Program-made: the position numbers and the translations under genes
The notes under the pieces: model-generated
Seen by the model: the letters and a program-made list of their open reading frames with translations, nothing else
Database searches by the model: none
Told to the model about the DNA's origin: nothing
Shown: in pieces, positions 25,628 to 37,569 of the stretch
How the letters are laid out: every line of letters begins with the position of its first letter
Position numbering within the stretch: position 1 is the stretch's first letter
Virus record (IMG/VR): IMGVR_UViG_3300035459_000058
Location: 1-39,014 of that record
Length of the DNA stretch: 39,014 nucleotides
Direction: 5' to 3' (one strand)
From: a virus

Positions 25628-25963
25628 TCACTCTCCTTTCGTGTTTACATATCTTATTATTTTCCCACGCATTTTTGCGTATTCAATTTCCCGTTCTGTA
25701 CTTTCACCAATATAGTTATTTATATTAAGTATTACTACTTCATCTGCCAAATCTATTTTGGCAAAATGAAGAACATCTAATTTTGCTTTAGTTAAACGTA
25801 ATTCAGATGGAGATAAATTACCAAAAATATCAGTATCGTCTTTCATGCTGCATCCAATAGAAAGAACAATTTTACCAGCAATTGTTTCTGATAATTGCCA
25901 ATATGTGAAATCATCTTTGAATTTAGTTGATCCACATAAACACACTATAGTTGGTCTGTTCAT
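25628..25963 (-). CDS. Nucleoside 2-deoxyribosyltransferase-like protein
   Basis: The 111-residue protein has IVCLCGSTKFKDDF at the N-terminus, LADEVVILNINNYIGEST and REIEYAKMRGKIIRY. This is the Rossmann-like deoxyribosyltransferase fold, where the Glu of GEST.REIEYA is the catalytic position. Such enzymes swap or remove bases on deoxynucleosides; phage relatives may act on nucleotides or NAD-like molecules. It overlaps the primase-helicase stop by four bases, suggesting a link to nucleotide supply during replication. Confidence 0.7.
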   Translation of the reverse strand: MNRPTIVCLCGSTKFKDDFTYWQLSETIAGKIVLSIGCSMKDDTDIFGNLSPSELRLTKAKLDVLHFAKIDLADEVVILNINNYIGESTEREIEYAKMRGKIIRYVNTKGE

Positions 25964-28728
25964 TCCTTTTCCTCTTTATTTTTAATTATCAGTTTCAACA
26001 TCTTGATAAACTCAGGCGTTTTAACAAAGAAATTCTTTCTCCTTTTTATACAGTTATTTGCAACAAGAAGTTGCTTAAATACTTTTGTTTTTTCTGTTGT
26101 TAATCCTGTGAAATCCACTAAATCATCAAACAAAATCATATTAGTATTTAGTATCTTAGTTAAAAAATTCTCTGGATTCATAAGTTCTTTTATGGCATCT
26201 TCAACTTTTTCTTCTCCTGTTATTTGTTGTTCATCTTGTTTTCCTTTACTGTAATCTTTATATCCAAAGTAAGTTGAGTCATAGAGTTCTTGGATAAAGT
26301 TGACAACAAACTCCACATGTTCTTCTCTAACAATAACATTAATGCCGTCCTCAGTAGAAAATAATCTACACGCCACCGCAACTGCCAATTTAGCAATTTT
26401 GATCCTCTGTACACTTCCCTGTACAAGTGGTATAGTGTCGGAGTATTTTGCTGACATTTCGATTGCATATTTGAGTATTGCACGTTCTGCCTCCTTTGTA
26501 AATTTTATATGTTTTTCTTTTCTGCTCCACGCCCACATGACGCATTTATTACACAGTTCGGATGTGTATATGTGATCTACTTTCTGATGTGATAGTGCGT
26601 TTATTTTGAGAACATCCACATCTTCTTTGGCGACAATGATAGCAAAATCAAGTCTTGATATATCTTCAGCACGTCCCATAAGTTCTCTGATTGCTTCAAT
26701 TCCTGAAGAATAGTGCGAGATTCTTGCACTACTTGATCTTGGATTTGAAATCCATATAAGTCGGACTCTTGAACTAGTTTTTCTAGTACTGCCAACGACT
26801 GTTCTCTCAGCAATTCCCGAATCTCTAATAGATGAGAGGTTCGATATATCATGAACGTCCAGCCCATTAACTTCATCTAATATCACCATCCTTCCATCAT
26901 TAATTGGCAAAACTCCCCAAGAGAACATCACGTCACGACCAAACTGTGACATTCCTCCAACTAAACCAGGAAGTGTTGCAGATTCAAGAGTTATATATTC
27001 TCCCACCTTGTAGTGTTTGCATAACTTTACTGCCGTTTTTGTTTTACCGGTTCTTGTATCTCCAAGGACGAGTAATTCAGCCCAACCTTTTTCGACCATT
27101 GAATCCAAAAACTTGAATTTCAATACACTATGGAATACAAGGTCACATGCAATAATTAAGTTACTTCTGTTTATTATTACCTCTGGAACATTGTATGTTA
27201 AGTCTCTTGCTATTTCATTTATTTTGAATAATACTCCTTTGAATCCATCTGCTTCAGGTTGAAATATTTTAAGTTTTTTTACATCTTCTTCTGATAGTTC
27301 AAATTTATCAAGGTCTGTTAATTCTGGAATATTCTTTTTGAAAAAATGACTCGCTTCTTGATTTCTTGCATCTGCTATTGTTTTGCCAAAAAAACTATAT
27401 GTTTTATTTAATTGTAAATCGTAACTTTGTATATAAGCCTTTCGTATCAAGAATTGCCTATCAATTCTTTCAGTATTTATTATTGGTGATATGAAAATTT
27501 CTTCTATTGCTTGCATATCAAATTCAACCTTAAACTGACCACATCCACTTATTCTTGCAAGTGATTTTATCTTTTCTTTTTGTTCTCCGCGTGAACATTT
27601 TATAAGGTCTAACATATCTTTGTCAGATACTTCGACAGTAGATGACCCACCAGTAAAAAACATTTTACAATTTTTGCATGAATCTCCTTTGGTAAAATTA
27701 CAAGACAATCTGATAGTTTTAGGAGCAAGAAAAGGAGAGAAATTTTTACCGACAGCAATTGCTTGAAAAGTAATATTTTCATCATATAATTCTTGTTTAA
27801 CACTTTCAAAAAAATCTACTGGTTGATATTCAATATCTGCTTCCAATATTTTTGTTACTTGTGTTGCATTTGCTACTAATGGATTCCATACTTCTGTAAA
27901 ATTCTTTTTTTGATCAATAGACCAAAGAAACAAATCAGTAAAATCACCCTTTTCTGGCAAAATATTTCCCGGTAAGTTTATAACATATGTTTCTTTTGCA
28001 TAATTCATTACCTTTTCTGATAATAAGCGAGCAGACATTTTTCCTTTTTGGTCTACGTCATAACATATATAAACTATCTTATCTTTGAAGTGAGTTAATA
28101 ATCCCTCCGTAAATGAGCCTTCCCCACCAGTAAAAGTTATTGCAGGAAAACCTAATTGTAATGCTAAGAGAGTATCAGGCTCGCCAGCAAAGATAATAAT
28201 ATTGTCGTATTGTAAATTGTTAATAGGAAATAAGCGTATTGTATTATATCCTTGTACTCCTTTGAATTTATCCTTACTTTTATGCAGAATATCATATTTA
28301 CGAATATTAACCAGAACACCACCCACATCGTAAATTGGTATTGATACTCTTTCATCATACCACCCCAATTTATATTGTTTTATTGTTTCGATAGTCAATG
28401 CTCTTTTAATGAATAATAATTTTTGAAGTGTATCAGACTTCAATAAATTACTATGAGCAATATCTACTTCTGTTTCAGTTAAAACAGGAGTTTTGTCATT
28501 TCCACATATTGCATTTTTAGCAACTGTAAAAGAACATGAATGTTGCTTCATGTAAAACTTAAATACATCCCCTCCATCCTGACACGAATGACAGAAGTAC
28601 AAACCTGTCTCCAAGTCCAAACTACAACTTGGACTCGTGTCAGCATGAAAGGGACATACAACATTCTGTTTTCTTACTGTTTCCTGTAAATTTGCAAAAT
28701 ATTTCCTATAAAAAGCGAACCACTGCAT
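25960..28728 (-). CDS. Primase fused to MCM-like AAA+ helicase
   Basis: The 922-residue protein joins two replication modules. Residues 1-270 are a DnaG-type primase: zinc finger C25/H28...C46/C49 and a TOPRIM domain with GEPD (E183), YDVDQKG (D224, D226) and GDFTDLF. A middle region has cysteines at 343, 351, 354 and 378 that may form an MCM-like zinc subdomain. Residues about 495-800 are an MCM-like ATPase with Walker A GDTRTGKT (556-563), Walker B RMVILDEVNGL (D618, E619) and sensor-1 WISNPR (N662). It should unwind DNA and lay primers. The start ATG has a weak SD and lies 22 bases after the tRNA gene. Confidence 0.85.
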   Translation of the reverse strand: MQWFAFYRKYFANLQETVRKQNVVCPFHADTSPSCSLDLETGLYFCHSCQDGGDVFKFYMKQHSCSFTVAKNAICGNDKTPVLTETEVDIAHSNLLKSDTLQKLLFIKRALTIETIKQYKLGWYDERVSIPIYDVGGVLVNIRKYDILHKSKDKFKGVQGYNTIRLFPINNLQYDNIIIFAGEPDTLLALQLGFPAITFTGGEGSFTEGLLTHFKDKIVYICYDVDQKGKMSARLLSEKVMNYAKETYVINLPGNILPEKGDFTDLFLWSIDQKKNFTEVWNPLVANATQVTKILEADIEYQPVDFFESVKQELYDENITFQAIAVGKNFSPFLAPKTIRLSCNFTKGDSCKNCKMFFTGGSSTVEVSDKDMLDLIKCSRGEQKEKIKSLARISGCGQFKVEFDMQAIEEIFISPIINTERIDRQFLIRKAYIQSYDLQLNKTYSFFGKTIADARNQEASHFFKKNIPELTDLDKFELSEEDVKKLKIFQPEADGFKGVLFKINEIARDLTYNVPEVIINRSNLIIACDLVFHSVLKFKFLDSMVEKGWAELLVLGDTRTGKTKTAVKLCKHYKVGEYITLESATLPGLVGGMSQFGRDVMFSWGVLPINDGRMVILDEVNGLDVHDISNLSSIRDSGIAERTVVGSTRKTSSRVRLIWISNPRSSSARISHYSSGIEAIRELMGRAEDISRLDFAIIVAKEDVDVLKINALSHQKVDHIYTSELCNKCVMWAWSRKEKHIKFTKEAERAILKYAIEMSAKYSDTIPLVQGSVQRIKIAKLAVAVACRLFSTEDGINVIVREEHVEFVVNFIQELYDSTYFGYKDYSKGKQDEQQITGEEKVEDAIKELMNPENFLTKILNTNMILFDDLVDFTGLTTEKTKVFKQLLVANNCIKRRKNFFVKTPEFIKMLKLIIKNKEEKE

Positions 28729-28750
28729 GAATCACCATAGTATAGCTGAG

Positions 28751-28821
28751 AACGAGAGAAAGGAATCGAACCTTTATTTGTTGGATCAAAGCCAACCGTC
28801 CTACCATTAGACGACTCTCGT
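28751..28821 (-). tRNA. tRNA-Gln (anticodon UUG)
   Basis: On the minus strand a full 71-nt cloverleaf is visible: acceptor ACGAGAG/CTCTCGT, D-arm GTCT...GGAC with loop AATGGTA, anticodon stem GTTGG/CCAAC with loop CTTTGAT (anticodon TTG), a 4-base variable loop and T-arm AAAGG-TTCGATT-CCTTT. The discriminator base is T and no CCA is encoded. It reads CAA, a very common Gln codon in this AT-rich phage. It lies inside the leftward operon between SSB and primase-helicase genes. Confidence 0.88.
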
Positions 28822-28827
28822 ATTGTT

Positions 28828-29313
28828 TTAGAACGGAACATCATTGTCATTCAGCGTATCGCTTTTCATTACTTCATTTTGATCAAGTTGTTTCAATATG
28901 TATATTGATTGAAAAGCTACTTCCTCACCTGTTTTGGTATTTTTCTTTATTTTTGTTTGTAGTTTCAATAAAAACAATTTATCAAGAGGTTTGTTGAATT
29001 GGCTTTCAACATTTGACCATTTGAAATTATCAATCCCTGCCATTCTTAGATCACGTGTTAAGAAGTCAAGACCTGCCGCATTGTCCATTCCTGAAAACTT
29101 CATTATCTTTCTGAAAGCATGTTTACCGGAAATAACTTCAAATTCCCATACACACTGCATTCTACCTTGACCATTTTTTGCTCTTGTTATATAAAGTTTG
29201 TCTAGTCTTGATTGTACTTCACCATCCGGAAGTTTTGAAAATCCATTATCTTCAACATTCTCTGGATTGTGAGTCTGATCTAATGATGCCAAATACGTTT
29301 CTTTCTCGTTCAT
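28828..29313 (-). CDS. Single-stranded DNA-binding protein (DUF669-like)
   Basis: The 161-residue protein has a beta-rich OB-like core (RLDKLYITRAKNGQGRMQC to KLQTKIKKNTKTGEEV) and ends in DTLNDNDVPF. This acidic tail closing with -VPF mimics the DDDIPF tail by which bacterial SSBs recruit partner proteins. DUF669-type phage proteins bind ssDNA and occur next to recombination ATPases, as here with the Sak4-like gene one base upstream. A GGAG site precedes ATG 29313. Confidence 0.8.
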   Translation of the reverse strand: MNEKETYLASLDQTHNPENVEDNGFSKLPDGEVQSRLDKLYITRAKNGQGRMQCVWEFEVISGKHAFRKIMKFSGMDNAAGLDFLTRDLRMAGIDNFKWSNVESQFNKPLDKLFLLKLQTKIKKNTKTGEEVAFQSIYILKQLDQNEVMKSDTLNDNDVPF

Positions 29314-29314
29314 T

Positions 29315-30043
29315 TCATTTCTCCTTTACCAAAGTTCCATCAAATATTTTTTGAATACGACCCCAGTTTGTACCAACTGGACCAATATCAATGTTACCAT
29401 AAGCTGCAAGTTTGCCAGTTCTATCACCAGAAATATAGTTTTCAGATGCCTTTACTTTCAACACTCTTTTTTCTACTCCTTGTGCATCTGTCTCCAAGGA
29501 ATAAAAAAGAATTATTCCTGATACCGACTCAATCATTTGCCATATATGATCTTGTAGTGTTGTTATAGATTTATTAAATTTTGCTGTTCTGGTTGTTATT
29601 TCCTTATCCTTGACGTGAGAAATCATAACAACACCAAGTCCAGACAATACTAATGCCATTGTCGGTCGCATAAATTCATCTTTAATCAAATCCCAACCTT
29701 TTCCAAAATCAAGGTCAGCAGGATGTGTTATTTCCAACTTTTTCATCATTTCAGTTACGCATAGTTTGTGTATCCTATCAACAGTGTCAAGAGTTACAAC
29801 TTTAAAACTATGCTTTGCATTTGGATCAATAAGTTCCGCTACCGCAAGTTTATAATCATTCCAATTTATCAGAGGTATTTGAAAACATTCAATTGCTTCA
29901 AGACCTCCACCTGCATTAAGGAAAATATTATTTGGTATTTCATTTGCTAATGATGATTTACCGATAAGTTTTTGACCATACAATAAAATTGTATAATCCC
30001 ATAAATTAGTTGAGGGTTTCTTTTTTTCGGTTGGTAGCGACAT
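29315..30043 (-). CDS. RecA-fold ATPase, Sak4-like annealing/recombination protein
   Basis: The 242-residue protein has Walker A GQKLIGKS (23-30), an NAGGGLEAI segment, Walker B FKVVTLDTVD (D86) and a late VVMISHVKDKE strand that fits sensor/L1 positions. This is the phage AAA_24 / Sak4 group of small RecA-like proteins that help homologous annealing. ATG 30043 is behind a strong GGAGG site and overlaps the previous gene by 38 bases. It should work with the adjacent SSB in recombination-dependent replication or repair. Confidence 0.82.
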   Translation of the reverse strand: MSLPTEKKKPSTNLWDYTILLYGQKLIGKSSLANEIPNNIFLNAGGGLEAIECFQIPLINWNDYKLAVAELIDPNAKHSFKVVTLDTVDRIHKLCVTEMMKKLEITHPADLDFGKGWDLIKDEFMRPTMALVLSGLGVVMISHVKDKEITTRTAKFNKSITTLQDHIWQMIESVSGIILFYSLETDAQGVEKRVLKVKASENYISGDRTGKLAAYGNIDIGPVGTNWGRIQKIFDGTLVKEK

Positions 30044-30609: not shown

Positions 30610-30806
30610 TGTTCATCCTCATCAAACCCAAATTTATCTCTATATTGGTTTTCAATTTGAATTTGTTCATATAAATTAGGCCAATCTTTAACAACCCAAT
30701 CTTGATCCAATAGCCAAAATATGTAACTATTTGGTAAATCACAAATTAACTTTCCTTTATATTTACCAAATGGCATTGGAGTATCTTGTTGTTTAACAGT
30801 GCTCAT
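30606..30806 (-). CDS. DUF3820-family small protein
   Basis: The 66-residue protein has MPFGKYKGKLICDLPNSY followed by FWLLDQDWV, the signature of DUF3820 (also found at the C-terminus of some exonuclease X proteins). It probably is a small nucleic-acid-related domain. ATG 30806 follows a GAGG site and overlaps the nuclease gene by 14 bases, so it may assist the nuclease upstream. The C-terminus is acidic (FDEDEH). Confidence 0.72.
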   Translation of the reverse strand: MSTVKQQDTPMPFGKYKGKLICDLPNSYIFWLLDQDWVVKDWPNLYEQIQIENQYRDKFGFDEDEH

Positions 30807-31758
30807 AAAAAGTCCTCAATGTTTCTTCTGTAGGATTGCTACAATATTTCAAGTATTCACATAATCCATAATTACTATCACAAGCAGTACCCCTTCTTTG
30901 CCATGTTCCTGTAACATAACATCTTGTCAAATCTTCAAAATACAATCTCAAATCTTTTATGAAATTTGTTATTGCATTTTGATTGAAGTACAAACTTTCC
31001 TCATAGAAATAAAACTCTGGTCTATCTTGATAATCTTTTGACAACCTTATTCTGAATTTTTGTGGTGTTTCTCCTTTGTTTAGTCTGATTGATGGTTTCC
31101 TTATATATCGGTATAGAACTCCATCAACTATGTGTTGATCTTTTGTTATCTTGGCAAACCAATATGAATTTATTTGAAAGTTAGTGTTAAGTTTTTGAAT
31201 CAAATCACTATCTATTTGACTTGTTGTTTTCAACTCAAGTATCCAAGGATTTACTGATGTGATAATATTCCCATCAAGACGATTAATGTAGTTATAATGA
31301 TAATTGCCAACAATGAAAGGAACTTCGATTTTATATTCTGGTATAATTTTTTCAATTTTAATTTCATCAAATCCTTCAATTCCTCCTTGTTGGTTATATT
31401 TTGTTACTTTTATATTATCTTTGTTTAAAAATCTTGTTTCATATCCAAACAACATAGACTGTACTATAGTAACAGATGTTTCAAGTTGATCAACTTGTGA
31501 TTGGTTTATTGCTTTATCAAGTAATGGCTTTTGTAAATCGTTCACATATGCCATACAAGTAGCTATTCCTTCTCCATTGTGCAAAAAGTAAACACATTTT
31601 GCAAAAAGATCACCTATATTTATTGCTTTGCGAACTCCACGTGGAATTATCTTATCAACATTTGCCATTTTATATTTAAATGGGCAATGAAGAAAATTTG
31701 AAAGATCATGTTGATGAAGATCGACATTTATTTTTGCAATTTCAGGTCGTTTTTTCAT
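30793..31758 (-). CDS. RecB/Cas4-type exonuclease with Fe-S cluster cysteines
   Basis: The 321-residue protein shows a PD-(D/E)XK nuclease core: D162 in YINRLDGN, E175-x-K177 in WILELKTT and a QxxxY helix (FQINSYWFA, about 194-202). One cysteine near the N-terminus (C25, in CPFKYK) and three near the C-terminus (C293, C300, C306) match the four ligands of the 4Fe-4S cluster in Cas4/AddB nucleases. Such enzymes resect DNA ends for recombination, consistent with the neighbouring SSB and Sak4-like genes. There is no CRISPR array. Confidence 0.82.
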   Translation of the reverse strand: MKKRPEIAKINVDLHQHDLSNFLHCPFKYKMANVDKIIPRGVRKAINIGDLFAKCVYFLHNGEGIATCMAYVNDLQKPLLDKAINQSQVDQLETSVTIVQSMLFGYETRFLNKDNIKVTKYNQQGGIEGFDEIKIEKIIPEYKIEVPFIVGNYHYNYINRLDGNIITSVNPWILELKTTSQIDSDLIQKLNTNFQINSYWFAKITKDQHIVDGVLYRYIRKPSIRLNKGETPQKFRIRLSKDYQDRPEFYFYEESLYFNQNAITNFIKDLRLYFEDLTRCYVTGTWQRRGTACDSNYGLCEYLKYCSNPTEETLRTFYEHC

Positions 31759-31936: not shown

Positions 31937-32857
31937 TTATTCCCCAAATAAATCAGCATTTTGTGCTTTCTTTTGTTTTTCTTTTTTTGCTCCTTTGCTT
32001 TTTTCAGAAACCTGTCCATCCATCCATTTTAAGAATCCACCCTTAATATAGTCACGATAATGCCAATAATCTAACGAGTTGATGAAATTCTTAACTTGAC
32101 TAACCATTCCAATATCTTTAAAAGGCATAATATAAGGAACTTGGTTAAAATTGATGAGCTTTTGGCATCTATAGAGATCATCTTCCCATGTTGTGTCATA
32201 ACCTGCAAGCACGTAGACTCTTGCTTCGATTTTATACTTATGAATAAATTCGAGTCCTCTGAGAATGAGCTTTTCGTCTCGCATTCTGTCCCAAGCGAAG
32301 TGGATTCTTCCATCCCATTTTGTTTTTTTAATAGCATCTGCTTTCTCCTCATCCATTAGTCTTAAATCAAGACCATGTTCTTTAACAGTTAATTTTTCCT
32401 TCCATATTTCTTCAAATGTTTCTTTCCATTTTGGATCAAGCAACCAATTGTTATTCATTATGCAGATTTTGTTAAATCGTTTATCATAGAAATCATATAT
32501 GGAGTGATGTCGTGTGTCGGGATGTTTAAGAGTTTTGACCAAGCAAAAATCACATCTTCGGTAGCATGGTCTAAAGGTGTAACCAAGGCTATATTCAATA
32601 TTTGGGAAAAGCTCGTAATCAGGTTTAATGTATTCGATCTCTCTTGGCAATGTTTTATCAGGGAATTGTATTCCTCCATACTCATCTGCAATAAAGTTTC
32701 TTTTATTCCATTCAAATAAGATACTTGCATAGGTTCTATCTGCCTCCATCAGTGGTTGATTAAGGGTTACTATGTCACCAAGTTTTTTGTGATACGCACT
32801 CAATTTCATTAATGCTAAATTATGGTTTGGTGCATCAGTCAATAATGATATTTTCAT
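31937..32857 (-). CDS. Radical SAM enzyme
   Basis: The 306-residue protein carries the radical SAM motif CxxxCxxC as FRPCYRRCDFC (C98, C102, C105), which binds a 4Fe-4S cluster that splits S-adenosylmethionine to make a radical. The first 90 residues (TDAPNHNLALMKLSAYHKKLGD) resemble the N-terminal domain of B12-type radical SAM proteins, without an obvious cobalamin histidine motif. The C-terminus is basic (EKSKGAKKEKQKKAQ). The reaction is unknown. AAGGA lies nine bases before the ATG. Confidence 0.85.
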   Translation of the reverse strand: MKISLLTDAPNHNLALMKLSAYHKKLGDIVTLNQPLMEADRTYASILFEWNKRNFIADEYGGIQFPDKTLPREIEYIKPDYELFPNIEYSLGYTFRPCYRRCDFCLVKTLKHPDTRHHSIYDFYDKRFNKICIMNNNWLLDPKWKETFEEIWKEKLTVKEHGLDLRLMDEEKADAIKKTKWDGRIHFAWDRMRDEKLILRGLEFIHKYKIEARVYVLAGYDTTWEDDLYRCQKLINFNQVPYIMPFKDIGMVSQVKNFINSLDYWHYRDYIKGGFLKWMDGQVSEKSKGAKKEKQKKAQNADLFGE

Positions 32858-33078: not shown

Positions 33079-33248
33079 TTTATCTCATATTTCTTCAATA
33101 TCTGCTTAATTGCAGTTCTGTGATTATTGATTTCATCAATATCTTTTTTGTCATATATTTTTGCTCTTATTTGCTCTAACTCAAATTCAGTCATAAGTAT
33201 TGTTTCAGGTTTTTCTTTATACCAAATTCCACTATGAGAAGTTTTCAT
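33075..33248 (-). CDS. Hypothetical protein (57 aa)
   Basis: ATG 33248 overlaps the helicase stop and the frame ends at TGA 33075-33077, overlapping the next ATG. The product (MKTSHSGIWYKEKPETIL...) is strongly charged and helical in its C-terminal half (MTEFELEQIRAKIYDKKDI). No family is recognised. ATGA overlaps on both sides fill an otherwise unexplained gap of about 165 bases and support it as a real gene. Confidence 0.6.
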   Translation of the reverse strand: MKTSHSGIWYKEKPETILMTEFELEQIRAKIYDKKDIDEINNHRTAIKQILKKYEIK

Positions 33249-34918
33249 AATAACCCCCTTATGTTATCTCTTGTTACAATATCCGCAATATTCTTTTTAG
33301 AACGCAATATTTTATATATTGCCAAATCAATTGTATCCTTACATAAAAGGTCAATGTACTGTACTTGATTGACCTGTCCAGCTCTATGCGCCCTATCTTC
33401 ACTTTGTAATCTTTGTTCAAGAGAATATGAATTACTGAAATATATGACGGTATTTGCTGCAGTAAGGTCAATTCCATGACCACCAGTTCCTGCTGTGCCT
33501 GCAATAACTTTGCAAGAATCAACCGTTTGAAATCTTTTGATATTTTCCCATCTACTTGCTTCATTATCTTTTCCATATATAGTCACTGCATCAATTTCCA
33601 TCTTTTTACACAAAGTCATTATTTGTTCAATATCATACTGGAATCTTGCCCATATAACTATTTTATTTCCATTACTTGATTCCAATATATCCTCAAGCGC
33701 GTCTATTTTTGGATTCTCTTCAAATGGAACTTCTTTATTTGTAACATCTTTAATGAACCCGCTTGTTATTTGACTTAACCTTAACAATTGAACCAATATT
33801 ATTGGTGCTGTTACTTTTTCACTCCCTTCTATTTGAGTTATACACCATTTAACCATTTCATCATATCTCAACTTATTATATAATGGCATTTCAAGTATTC
33901 GTTGATCGTACAATTTATCTGGAATATCTATACATTCCTTTTTTACAAATCTTGTTGATTTACCAAACATTTTATCACTTATCTCTTTCGGTGCTCCATT
34001 TTTGGCAAGAAGTTTATATCCTTGACGCCAGAAGTATTTGTCTATAAAACTATCGTATTGAACACCAAATGTTTCACCTGCATCAAGGAAAAGAAATTGG
34101 CTAAATACATCATATGCATGTTGAGTAACAGGAGTTCCTGTCAATATCAATTTATGAATTGTCTTTAATCCTAGTTCATGGCATGCTTTTGATCTTTTAG
34201 CATGAGGATTTTTTATCTTTGTTGTCTCATCCAGAACAGCAAACCATTTATTATTTACTATTGAAAGTATATCTTCTTTCATCCTACAAAATGTTTCATA
34301 TGTAGTTACCAACCATTCCCAATCTTCACCTAATGTTTCAGCTTTTTCTTCTTTCGTTCCCCTTATCGGATACGCCATACCAGTTGACCACTTTCCAATT
34401 TCTTCAACCCATTTATTTACCATCGAAAGTGGACATATAACAATTCCATGGTCAACATTTCCTAATTGTTTCTTTATTTCGTATATTTCAATAGCACTTC
34501 TTGTTTTGCCAGTACCCATTTCCCATAACATTGCATGACTATCTATCTGCCGGCCCCAATATTGAGCAATATGTTGATTCTTGAAAGGCTTTAACTCATT
34601 ATGTGAGTACAATATAGGTAACTTACTCACAGTGTCAATTTTAAGACTATTTAAAAATTGTACAGATACTATATCTTTTTGTCTTTTCTTTAAGTACTCT
34701 GTTAATTGTTCCGTTAATGCTAATTTCCATGCGCTTTTATCTTTTTTATGCCAAGCGAACAATCGTTCGATATTTTCCATATTTAGTGGATAGTAAGATG
34801 TTTTCTCTTTTTGTCTCCATACACCAGAAACTAATCTCGGTTGTGTATAATAATCATTTTTATCTGAATTAGTGCAAGTTATCATTTTTTCAGATGAATC
34901 GTATGAGAATATTAACAT
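33245..34918 (-). CDS. SNF2-family helicase/ATPase
   Basis: The 557-residue protein has the SF2 motifs in order: motif I WEMGTGKTRSA (132-142), Ia HGIVICPLSMVNKW, motif II VLDETTKI (D230, E231), III LTGTP (259-263), a second RecA lobe with KIVIWARFQYD, GTAGTGGHGIDLTAAN and the final QRLQSEDRAHRAGQ with its arginine finger. SNF2-type phage proteins remodel DNA-protein complexes or branched DNA in early replication. ATG 34918 is preceded by AAAGGAT and by a long hairpin at 34934-35001. Confidence 0.9.
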   Translation of the reverse strand: MLIFSYDSSEKMITCTNSDKNDYYTQPRLVSGVWRQKEKTSYYPLNMENIERLFAWHKKDKSAWKLALTEQLTEYLKKRQKDIVSVQFLNSLKIDTVSKLPILYSHNELKPFKNQHIAQYWGRQIDSHAMLWEMGTGKTRSAIEIYEIKKQLGNVDHGIVICPLSMVNKWVEEIGKWSTGMAYPIRGTKEEKAETLGEDWEWLVTTYETFCRMKEDILSIVNNKWFAVLDETTKIKNPHAKRSKACHELGLKTIHKLILTGTPVTQHAYDVFSQFLFLDAGETFGVQYDSFIDKYFWRQGYKLLAKNGAPKEISDKMFGKSTRFVKKECIDIPDKLYDQRILEMPLYNKLRYDEMVKWCITQIEGSEKVTAPIILVQLLRLSQITSGFIKDVTNKEVPFEENPKIDALEDILESSNGNKIVIWARFQYDIEQIMTLCKKMEIDAVTIYGKDNEASRWENIKRFQTVDSCKVIAGTAGTGGHGIDLTAANTVIYFSNSYSLEQRLQSEDRAHRAGQVNQVQYIDLLCKDTIDLAIYKILRSKKNIADIVTRDNIRGLL

Positions 34919-36441: not shown

Positions 36442-36603
36442 TCAATCCTCCTTCTTTTTGAAGATTAGTGAAATTATCCCGAATAACGTGGCAATCAATA
36501 GAAACCCCTCCAAAACAATAAAACAAATTACTAAATTCTCTTGAAAGTTAAGTGGAGCAATTTCTATATGACCCAACCAATCGTACCATCCAAATTGATT
36601 CAT
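36442..36603 (-). CDS. Small single-pass membrane protein (53 aa)
   Basis: ATG 36603 overlaps the pentapeptide-repeat stop (ATGA) and the frame ends two bases before the next ATG. After a polar N-terminus ([18 protein letters not shown]) there is one clear membrane segment ([20 protein letters not shown]) and a basic tail KKKED. The TM pattern and coupled overlaps support a real gene. An early phage membrane protein could exclude other phages or alter the envelope, but this is a guess. Confidence 0.6.
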
Positions 36604-37052
36604 TTTATTTCTCCACATTCATCTACTCTGTGAAATTTATTTGCCAAAGATTTCAATGATTTCTGTGCTTCTTTTGCTTCCTCACAATCACCAAAATCCA
36701 TTCTACAAAAATGGTATGCCATTTGAGCAGCTAACCTTAAATCAAGTTTTATGTTAAATGATGAACATTCGAATGAAAATCCAGAGGAAGAATCAAGATT
36801 GGCCTCACGAAGATTGGCCTCACGAAGATTGGCCCCATGAAGATTGGCACCACTAAGATCGGCCCCACTAAGATTGGCCTCACGAAGATTGGCCTCACGA
36901 AGATTGGCCCCATGAAGATTGGCACCACTAAGATCGGCCCCACCACGAAGATTGGCCCAATGAAGATCGGCCTCACGAAGATCGGCCCCACTAAGATTGG
37001 CCTCACTCACTTCAAATAAAACTCTCCCTGTCGTTTTATGTAATATCTTCAT
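36600..37052 (-). CDS. Pentapeptide-repeat protein
   Basis: The 150-residue protein has about fourteen A(N/D)LxX repeats from residue about 19 to 87 ([18 protein letters not shown] and so on), with one extra Gly (RGGADL) breaking register. The family folds as a right-handed four-sided beta-helix that can mimic DNA, as in Qnr and MfpA, which bind gyrase. The C-terminal 55 residues are helical with cysteines. ATG 37052 follows GGAGG by nine bases. A 75-bp tandem duplication lies within the repeats. Gyrase inhibition is possible but not shown. Confidence 0.82.
36795..36944 (-). repeat. 75-bp tandem duplication within pentapeptide gene
   Basis: Bases 36795-36869 and 36870-36944 are two adjacent copies of a 75-bp unit (five 15-bp pentapeptide codon blocks) differing only at the final position (T 36869, C 36944). 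The near identity at synonymous sites indicates a recent slippage or recombination event. Neighbouring single 15-bp units extend the array to about 37010. Confidence 0.85.
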
Positions 37053-37569
37053 TATCTTTATCCTCCGTTTCTTCAATTTCCTCTTTCGGTTTTCTTAAGC
37101 ATATTTTAGATTTACATTCATCACAATCTTTCATTTTTATGTCAATACCATTGACAAGGTAACACGCTGATTTTTCCGTTCTCGTTAATTTGTCTAAATC
37201 CTTACTCATTTCTTGAGTGAAATTGCCATCTTTTATATTCTTGTCCCATTTTTCCATAAACTTAAGTTTCGCATATGTTTTGAATAGCTCCAGTTCACGG
37301 TTTATTAATGTGGTTCTCATCTTGTTCCACATTATACTGGCAATCTGAGCACGTTTTACCTGTTTTAATTCTTCTGCTTCAAGGAAAGTAACAGCGTCAA
37401 AGAAATGACGTTTGTCGAACTGGGTAGGATTATCCAGTATTTGATAATACTGAACAAATTCACGCATTTTTTCTACTTCTTCTTTTTTATCTTCACCTTT
37501 CAGATTGTTCGGATCACGAAAAGGTGTATAGTGTACGGGTGGTAATTCAAATAAAAGTAACGCTTCCAT
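37036..37569 (-). CDS. Hypothetical protein (177 aa)
   Basis: ATG 37569 lies behind the shared GATGGAGG leader. The protein is helical and charged, with a CDECKSKIC cysteine pair near residues 149-157 and a very acidic C-terminus ([15 protein letters not shown]). No family is recognised. It overlaps the pentapeptide gene by 17 bases. Confidence 0.62.

Follow-up and report, generated by a model that had tools for sequence, protein, structure and literature searches.

The stretch of DNA analysed here (the window) comprises the 39,014 nt of IMG/VR virus record IMGVR_UViG_3300035459_000058. It belongs to a tailed phage, with matches to terminase, portal and major head protein genes, and the record is classed as viral; a megablast search of window positions 14101-39014 against phages gave no match. 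On the minus strand, at 25960-28728, lies a gene for a protein of 922 aa (P0001), an uninterrupted single chain that is homologous over its full length to other phage and IMG/VR proteins. From the N-terminus, the domain order is a CHC2 zinc ribbon, a TOPRIM primase, an MCM N-terminal domain, an AAA+ motor and a C-terminal winged-helix-like segment. When P0001 alone is compared with the PDB, its matches are DnaG primases and MCMs. A sequence-only reading of the window had proposed that this reading frame holds a DnaG-type primase and an MCM helicase in one chain, and profile, hhalign and fold comparisons now bear out that proposal.

The fusion gene follows genes on the same (minus) strand that encode, in order, an SNF2/UvsW-like helicase (33245-34918), a radical-SAM protein of PHROG 9298 (31937-32857), a PD-(D/E)XK exonuclease of the Cas4/RecB-like type (30793-31758), a Sak4-like RecA-family ATPase (29315-30043) and an SSB-like protein (phrog_7778; 28828-29313). 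Neighbours were counted in 88 DnaG-MCM loci whose upstream sequence exceeds 6.5 kb, some of them from the same contig. The SNF2 helicase is present in 83 of the 88, the Sak4-like ATPase in 57, the nuclease in 54 and the SSB-like protein in 35, while PolA and DnaE are each found in 26; a gene similar to that of the radical-SAM protein is in the module of three related loci. The conserved module can be summarized as SNF2-nuclease-Sak4-SSB-primase/MCM-polymerase. There are also local peculiarities. A tRNA-Gln (TTG) gene at 28750-28821 (minus strand) lies between the SSB-like and primase-MCM genes, and the ATG of the latter follows it by about 20 bases, with only a weak Shine-Dalgarno-like sequence, GGTGA; in one relative (L002) the SSB-like and primase-MCM genes abut. 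Elsewhere in the window, a pentapeptide-repeat protein is encoded at 36600-37076 on the minus strand (Pfam E 2.6e-27).

The N-terminal half consists of the CHC2 zinc ribbon (residues 13-75; 28504-28692, minus strand), recognized by Pfam PF01807 at E 4e-12 and in 41 of 49 homologues scanned, and a DnaG-type catalytic core that includes the TOPRIM domain (residues ~80-290; 27859-28491, minus strand), delimited by matches to 2au3, 5guj and 1eqn and by an AlphaFold2 model. The Toprim_2 match of P0001 itself is weak (E 0.015), and this family is matched by 37 of the 49 members. When a profile built from 63 members is run against every PDB chain, it finds the DnaG structure 2au3 at E 5e-27, and also the primase domain of T7 gp4 (1nui, 6n7i). 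Across the same 63 homologues, E183, D224 and D226, which correspond to the Glu and DxD metal ligands of TOPRIM, are invariant, as are G182 and G229, and D262 is present in 62. The earlier assignment of a CHC2-like zinc finger and TOPRIM motifs to residues 1-270 is upheld by these data, and the DnaG-type identity of the N-terminal half is confirmed at the level of sequence. It might be argued that the DnaG-like part has lost its primase activity and only loads or regulates the ring, because TOPRIM folds are also found in enzymes that do not prime, and zinc ligands are lost in some homologues (C49, for example, is present in 40 of 63 by alignment column, a figure that partly reflects alignment shifts). 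The unbroken conservation of the catalytic residues and the nature of the best matches, which are bona fide DnaG and T7 gp4 primases, speak against such a loss, and we regard it as improbable.

The remainder of the chain looks like a full MCM rather than merely an MCM-like motor. The AAA+ motor (residues 496-790; 26359-27243, minus strand, as are all features of this half) was delimited by Pfam, the family profile, fold search and hhalign. It contains Walker A, GDTRTGKT (residues 556-563; 27040-27063), with G556, D557 and K562 invariant; Walker B (residues 614-619; 26872-26889), with E619 invariant; sensor 1, WISNP (residues 659-663; 26740-26754), with N662 invariant; and an arginine-finger motif, EDISRLDF (residues 688-695; 26644-26667), with R692 invariant, which is the counterpart of the SRFD motif of MCM. 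The residues K562, E619, N662 and R692 are unchanged in all 63 homologues. Three of these motifs had been named beforehand, and they were found as described: GDTRTGKT at 556-563, VILDEVNGL from 615 and WISNPR at 659-664. Two further elements are seen in the AlphaFold2 model, namely a helix-2 insert hairpin (residues 586-605; 26914-26973), with strands 591-596 and 599-604 and an invariant W604-G605, and a pre-sensor-1 beta-hairpin (residues 639-652; 26773-26814), with strands 639-644 and 647-652.

Upstream of the motor is the MCM N-terminal domain (residues 300-488; 27265-27831), identified by AlphaFold2, PDB folds and hhalign. The four-cysteine patch noticed in the sequence-only reading is present here and is conserved, with C343, C351 and C354 in 62 of 63 homologues and C396 in 58. 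The sequence of this domain has no significant match among PDB sequences; folded alone, the part between primase and motor gives a pLDDT of 93.2, and its best 50 PDB folds are all MCM. A domain of MCM type, with predicted zinc-binding and OB-like parts, is thus indicated by the model. Downstream of the motor, residues 839-922 (25963-26214) are modelled as helical apart from one pair of strands, and we designate this segment winged-helix-like from its modelled secondary structure and its alignment to the archaeal MCM C-terminus; single homologues have a MarR/HTH Pfam match at this end.

The assignment of the motor to MCM requires some care, because P0001 by itself matches Pfam MCM weakly, at E 0.0024, short of the curated cut-off. 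The test was therefore made with the whole family, and 42 of 49 members match Pfam MCM (best E 1e-14). Against a profile of eight archaeal MCMs, P0001 reaches 28.7 bits (E 4e-8), compared with 9.6 bits for the best of 2000 shuffles of P0001, and hhalign of the family against these eight proteins returns a probability of 99.3% (E 2.6e-20, 13% identity) across 575 columns, running from the N-domain to the C-terminus. The AlphaFold2 model of the P0001 monomer has a mean pLDDT of 90.9 and a pTM of 0.67, so that the placement of the domains is less sure; when this whole model is used in a fold search, the 50 best PDB matches are all MCM. A competing explanation is that the motor belongs to another helix-2-insert AAA+ group (Mg-chelatase/YifB, MoxR or dynein-like), or is a mobile-element helicase of the SF3, DUF927 or VirE type, and that its likeness to MCM is superficial. 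In addition to the subthreshold Pfam score, it could be pointed out that single members match AAA_5 or AAA, and that such helicases are frequent on mobile elements (PMC5862659). Nevertheless, AAA_5 is matched by 1 of 49 members, the 60 matches listed for the 63-member profile in the PDB are solely DnaG-type primases and MCM2-7 or archaeal MCM, and the pairing with archaeal MCMs extends across the N-domain, the motor and the C-terminal segment. Neither the family profile, the Pfam tally nor the fold search lends support to another AAA+ clade, and we consider this explanation extremely improbable. The sequence-only reading had asked for the profile-profile comparison, and had named as its refutation a placement of the ATPase in another AAA+ clade lacking the MCM insertions. 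No such refutation was obtained: the comparison aligned the motor half with archaeal MCM, MCMs alone were matched on this half among the profile matches listed and the 50 best folds, and both hairpins are in the model.

The fusion is not peculiar to the window. A tblastn search of P0001 against 50,697 phage records gave matches in 287, of which 47 extend over at least 80% of its length. Most of these 47 are Krampusvirus-type Microbacterium phages (31% identity, E ~1e-119), and the others include Bacillus BSTP phages and Weizmannia Youna2. An alignment query of IMG/VR found 287 stretches that encode a relative (that this equals the number of phage records is a coincidence), and the best 79 loci mostly encode one uninterrupted chain of 920-990 aa, which rules out a sequence artefact or a fusion arising by chance in a single contig. 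Within the collection of species genomes, a full-length member was found in one metagenome-assembled genome, and Paenibacillus and Brevibacillus chromosomes carry a version with an archaeo-eukaryotic primase (AEP) fused to MCM. The fusion is not unique to the window, since the 47 phage records and most of the 79 IMG/VR loci share it. Nor can MCM be confined to archaea and eukaryotes, as had been assumed, because MCMs on bacterial mobile elements and AEP-MCM fusions have been published, and those of Bacillus prophages are partly characterized (PMC4538821, PMC5862659).

Some matches and annotations were set aside. The Streptomyces and Propionibacterium matches that were sampled cover only the first ~80 residues (the zinc ribbon), so that the idea that these many matches are fusions too is not supported. 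The annotation "DNA primase small subunit" is wrong for Youna2 and BSTP5, because Youna2 has a DnaG-type N-terminus and the BSTP5 protein matches P0001 from residue 6. Two divergent arrangements were also observed. At L026 (7995-11075), a complete gene of the KhpA-type KH-domain family (Pfam E 2.4e-17), which has a Shine-Dalgarno-like sequence of its own, interrupts the TOPRIM-coding part of the fusion gene, leaving a primase part of 264 aa and an MCM part of 680 aa; this may be a real split gene or an assembly chimera. A 46 kb Paenibacillus larvae plasmid (L006) encodes a DnaG-MCM that has diverged strongly, sits on a long branch and has an altered Walker A, GEPRSMKS.

The DnaB-type helicase domain DnaB_C (PF03796) was found in none of the 32 fusion-bearing records (the window and 31 related), which include whole genomes of AnnaSerena, BSTP12, Youna2 and ctokW459 as well as IMG/VR records that may be fragments, so that absences among them are weak. 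PolA is present in 17 of the 32 and DnaE in 11 others. In the window and its close relatives G001, G002 and G004, no PolA, DnaE or PolB was found; these records may be fragments, or the phages may use a host polymerase. An alternative role would be that of an origin-binding, initiation or restart factor, with host DnaB doing the bulk of the unwinding. The winged-helix-like segment at the C-terminus could serve in origin binding, primases of the DnaG type are able to cooperate with DnaB, and the window's clade, in whose records none of the three polymerases was found, may lean on its host. Distant relatives, however, encode a polymerase of their own next to the fusion and lack DnaB, and the nearest characterized relative, BcMCM, is an active helicase (PMC4538821), which leaves this alternative rather unlikely.

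The relationship to the AEP-MCM fusions is informative with regard to the evolution of the primase. The profile phrog_18685 spans a BcMCM-type protein (L114) end to end, whereas it matches P0001 at residues 311-907 only (E 4.5e-70). With separate profiles, the N-terminal halves of DnaG-MCM and AEP-MCM do not cross-match but the MCM halves do; the AEP profile has no match in the DnaG-MCM proteins listed, nor the DnaG profile in the AEP-MCM proteins. Sorting by profile assigned 119 locus entries, counting repeats, to the DnaG type and 40 to the AEP type, with 2 more truncated, and PolA is present in 35 of 37 AEP-MCM loci, some loci again sharing a contig. In a tree of MCM halves, the AEP group adjoins or falls within the DnaG-type lineages, and when archaeal MCMs are added, DnaG-MCM and AEP-MCM together make up a single clade, with full support, at the end of a very long branch. 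From these sequence comparisons AEP-MCM is shown to be the sister of DnaG-MCM in its MCM half, and the presence of an unrelated primase on the same MCM chassis implies one or more exchanges of the primase, and shows that primases without kinship can replace each other on one helicase. Rooting with the archaeal sequences, which lie too far away, does not orient the exchange. The AU test does not reject a single AEP clade (p 0.318), and one exchange therefore suffices. In two loci, L134 and L139, an AEP primase is joined to an MCM half that by BLAST score is nearer to the DnaG-type fusions than to the BcMCM type. These may represent an intermediate or a second exchange; two independent exchanges are not proven by them, given that the data allow one AEP clade.

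Taken together, we think it highly probable that the fusion is a self-contained replicative helicase-primase of the phage, operating as follows. Six copies of P0001 would form a ring through the MCM part. Driven by ATP, the ring would move 3'-5' along the leading-strand template, N-tier first, as predicted from MCM homology and BcMCM. The N-terminal DnaG-type primase would occupy the leading face, at the exit of the excluded lagging strand from the ring, and would make RNA primers there. Extension of the primers would fall to a PolA or DnaE of the phage; in the clade of the window, whose records yielded no polymerase, a host polymerase would probably take this part. The fusion would in this way stand in for a helicase of the DnaB or T7 gp4 type, and its MCM chassis is common to the AEP-primase fusion of Bacillus phages (BcMCM), with the primase part having been exchanged during evolution. 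The architecture, the conservation and the absence of DnaB from the whole genomes are observed directly; the polarity, priming and hexamerization are inferred. In yeast and human replisomes, Pol alpha-primase is located on the MCM N-tier above the exit channel of the lagging strand (PMC10501992), and an N-terminal fusion would place a primase at the same spot. An archaeal MCM is reported to unwind N-first (PMC6831031); given the 13% identity and the very long branch to archaeal MCMs, the polarity and step mechanism of the fusion could differ.

A broader proposal, to which we give an even chance, is that a widespread group of phages uses a hybrid fork, in which an MCM ring of archaeo-eukaryotic type, moving 3'-5' and N-first on the leading strand, carries a bacterial RNA primase on its N-face and operates with bacterial-type polymerases (DnaE or PolA of the phage, or those of the host), and in which the N-face serves as a socket for exchanged DnaG and AEP primases. 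If so, a gene fusion would put the primase where Pol alpha-primase is found on the eukaryotic CMG. The fusion is a natural enzyme that joins a bacterial primase to a helicase of archaeo-eukaryotic type, and it is found in growable phages of Microbacterium, Bacillus and Weizmannia. It opens two questions to testing: the dependence of priming on the polarity of the helicase and on the face that bears the primase, and the way in which primases without homology take each other's place in a replisome. In addition, many phage annotations would be corrected, because the helicase half is now usually covered only by "DNA primase" or "helicase".

Among known systems, full-length homologues (~30-31% identical) are the "DNA primase/helicase" proteins of Microbacterium Krampusvirus (AnnaSerena, Krampus), Bacillus BSTP12 and Weizmannia Youna2. 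They have the same domain order and a similar neighbourhood, and differ from P0001 in sequence divergence only. Their records do not name the helicase half as MCM, and in three papers on these phages the word MCM is absent and at most a DNA primase is named. We found no description of a DnaG-type primase-MCM fusion in the accessible literature, although an earlier survey may mention such fusions, and no biochemistry of any DnaG-type member. T7 gp4 resembles P0001 in having a DnaG-type primase N-terminal to a ring helicase. Its motor, however, is of the RecA-fold DnaB type and moves 5'-3', whereas that of P0001 is an AAA+ MCM with an expected 3'-5' polarity. The archaeal and eukaryotic MCMs share with P0001 the Cys4 N-domain, the helix-2 insert, the pre-sensor-1 hairpin and the SRFD-like arginine finger; P0001 differs from archaeal MCM in its low identity, its long branch and its possession of a primase in the same chain. 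The nearest characterized relative is BcMCM, from a Bacillus cereus prophage (PHROG 18685 type), which is likewise a single chain with an N-terminal primase and a C-terminal MCM. It is reported to act as a 3'-5' helicase, a primase and a polymerase (PMC4538821); primase activity was not seen in an early report (PMC4538821). The MCM halves of BcMCM and P0001 are sister groups with ~30% identity, but the BcMCM primase has the AEP fold, which is unrelated to the DnaG-type CHC2 and TOPRIM domains of P0001. The primase-MCM fusion is thus already known with an AEP primase, and the DnaG-type version, unless described before, is new.
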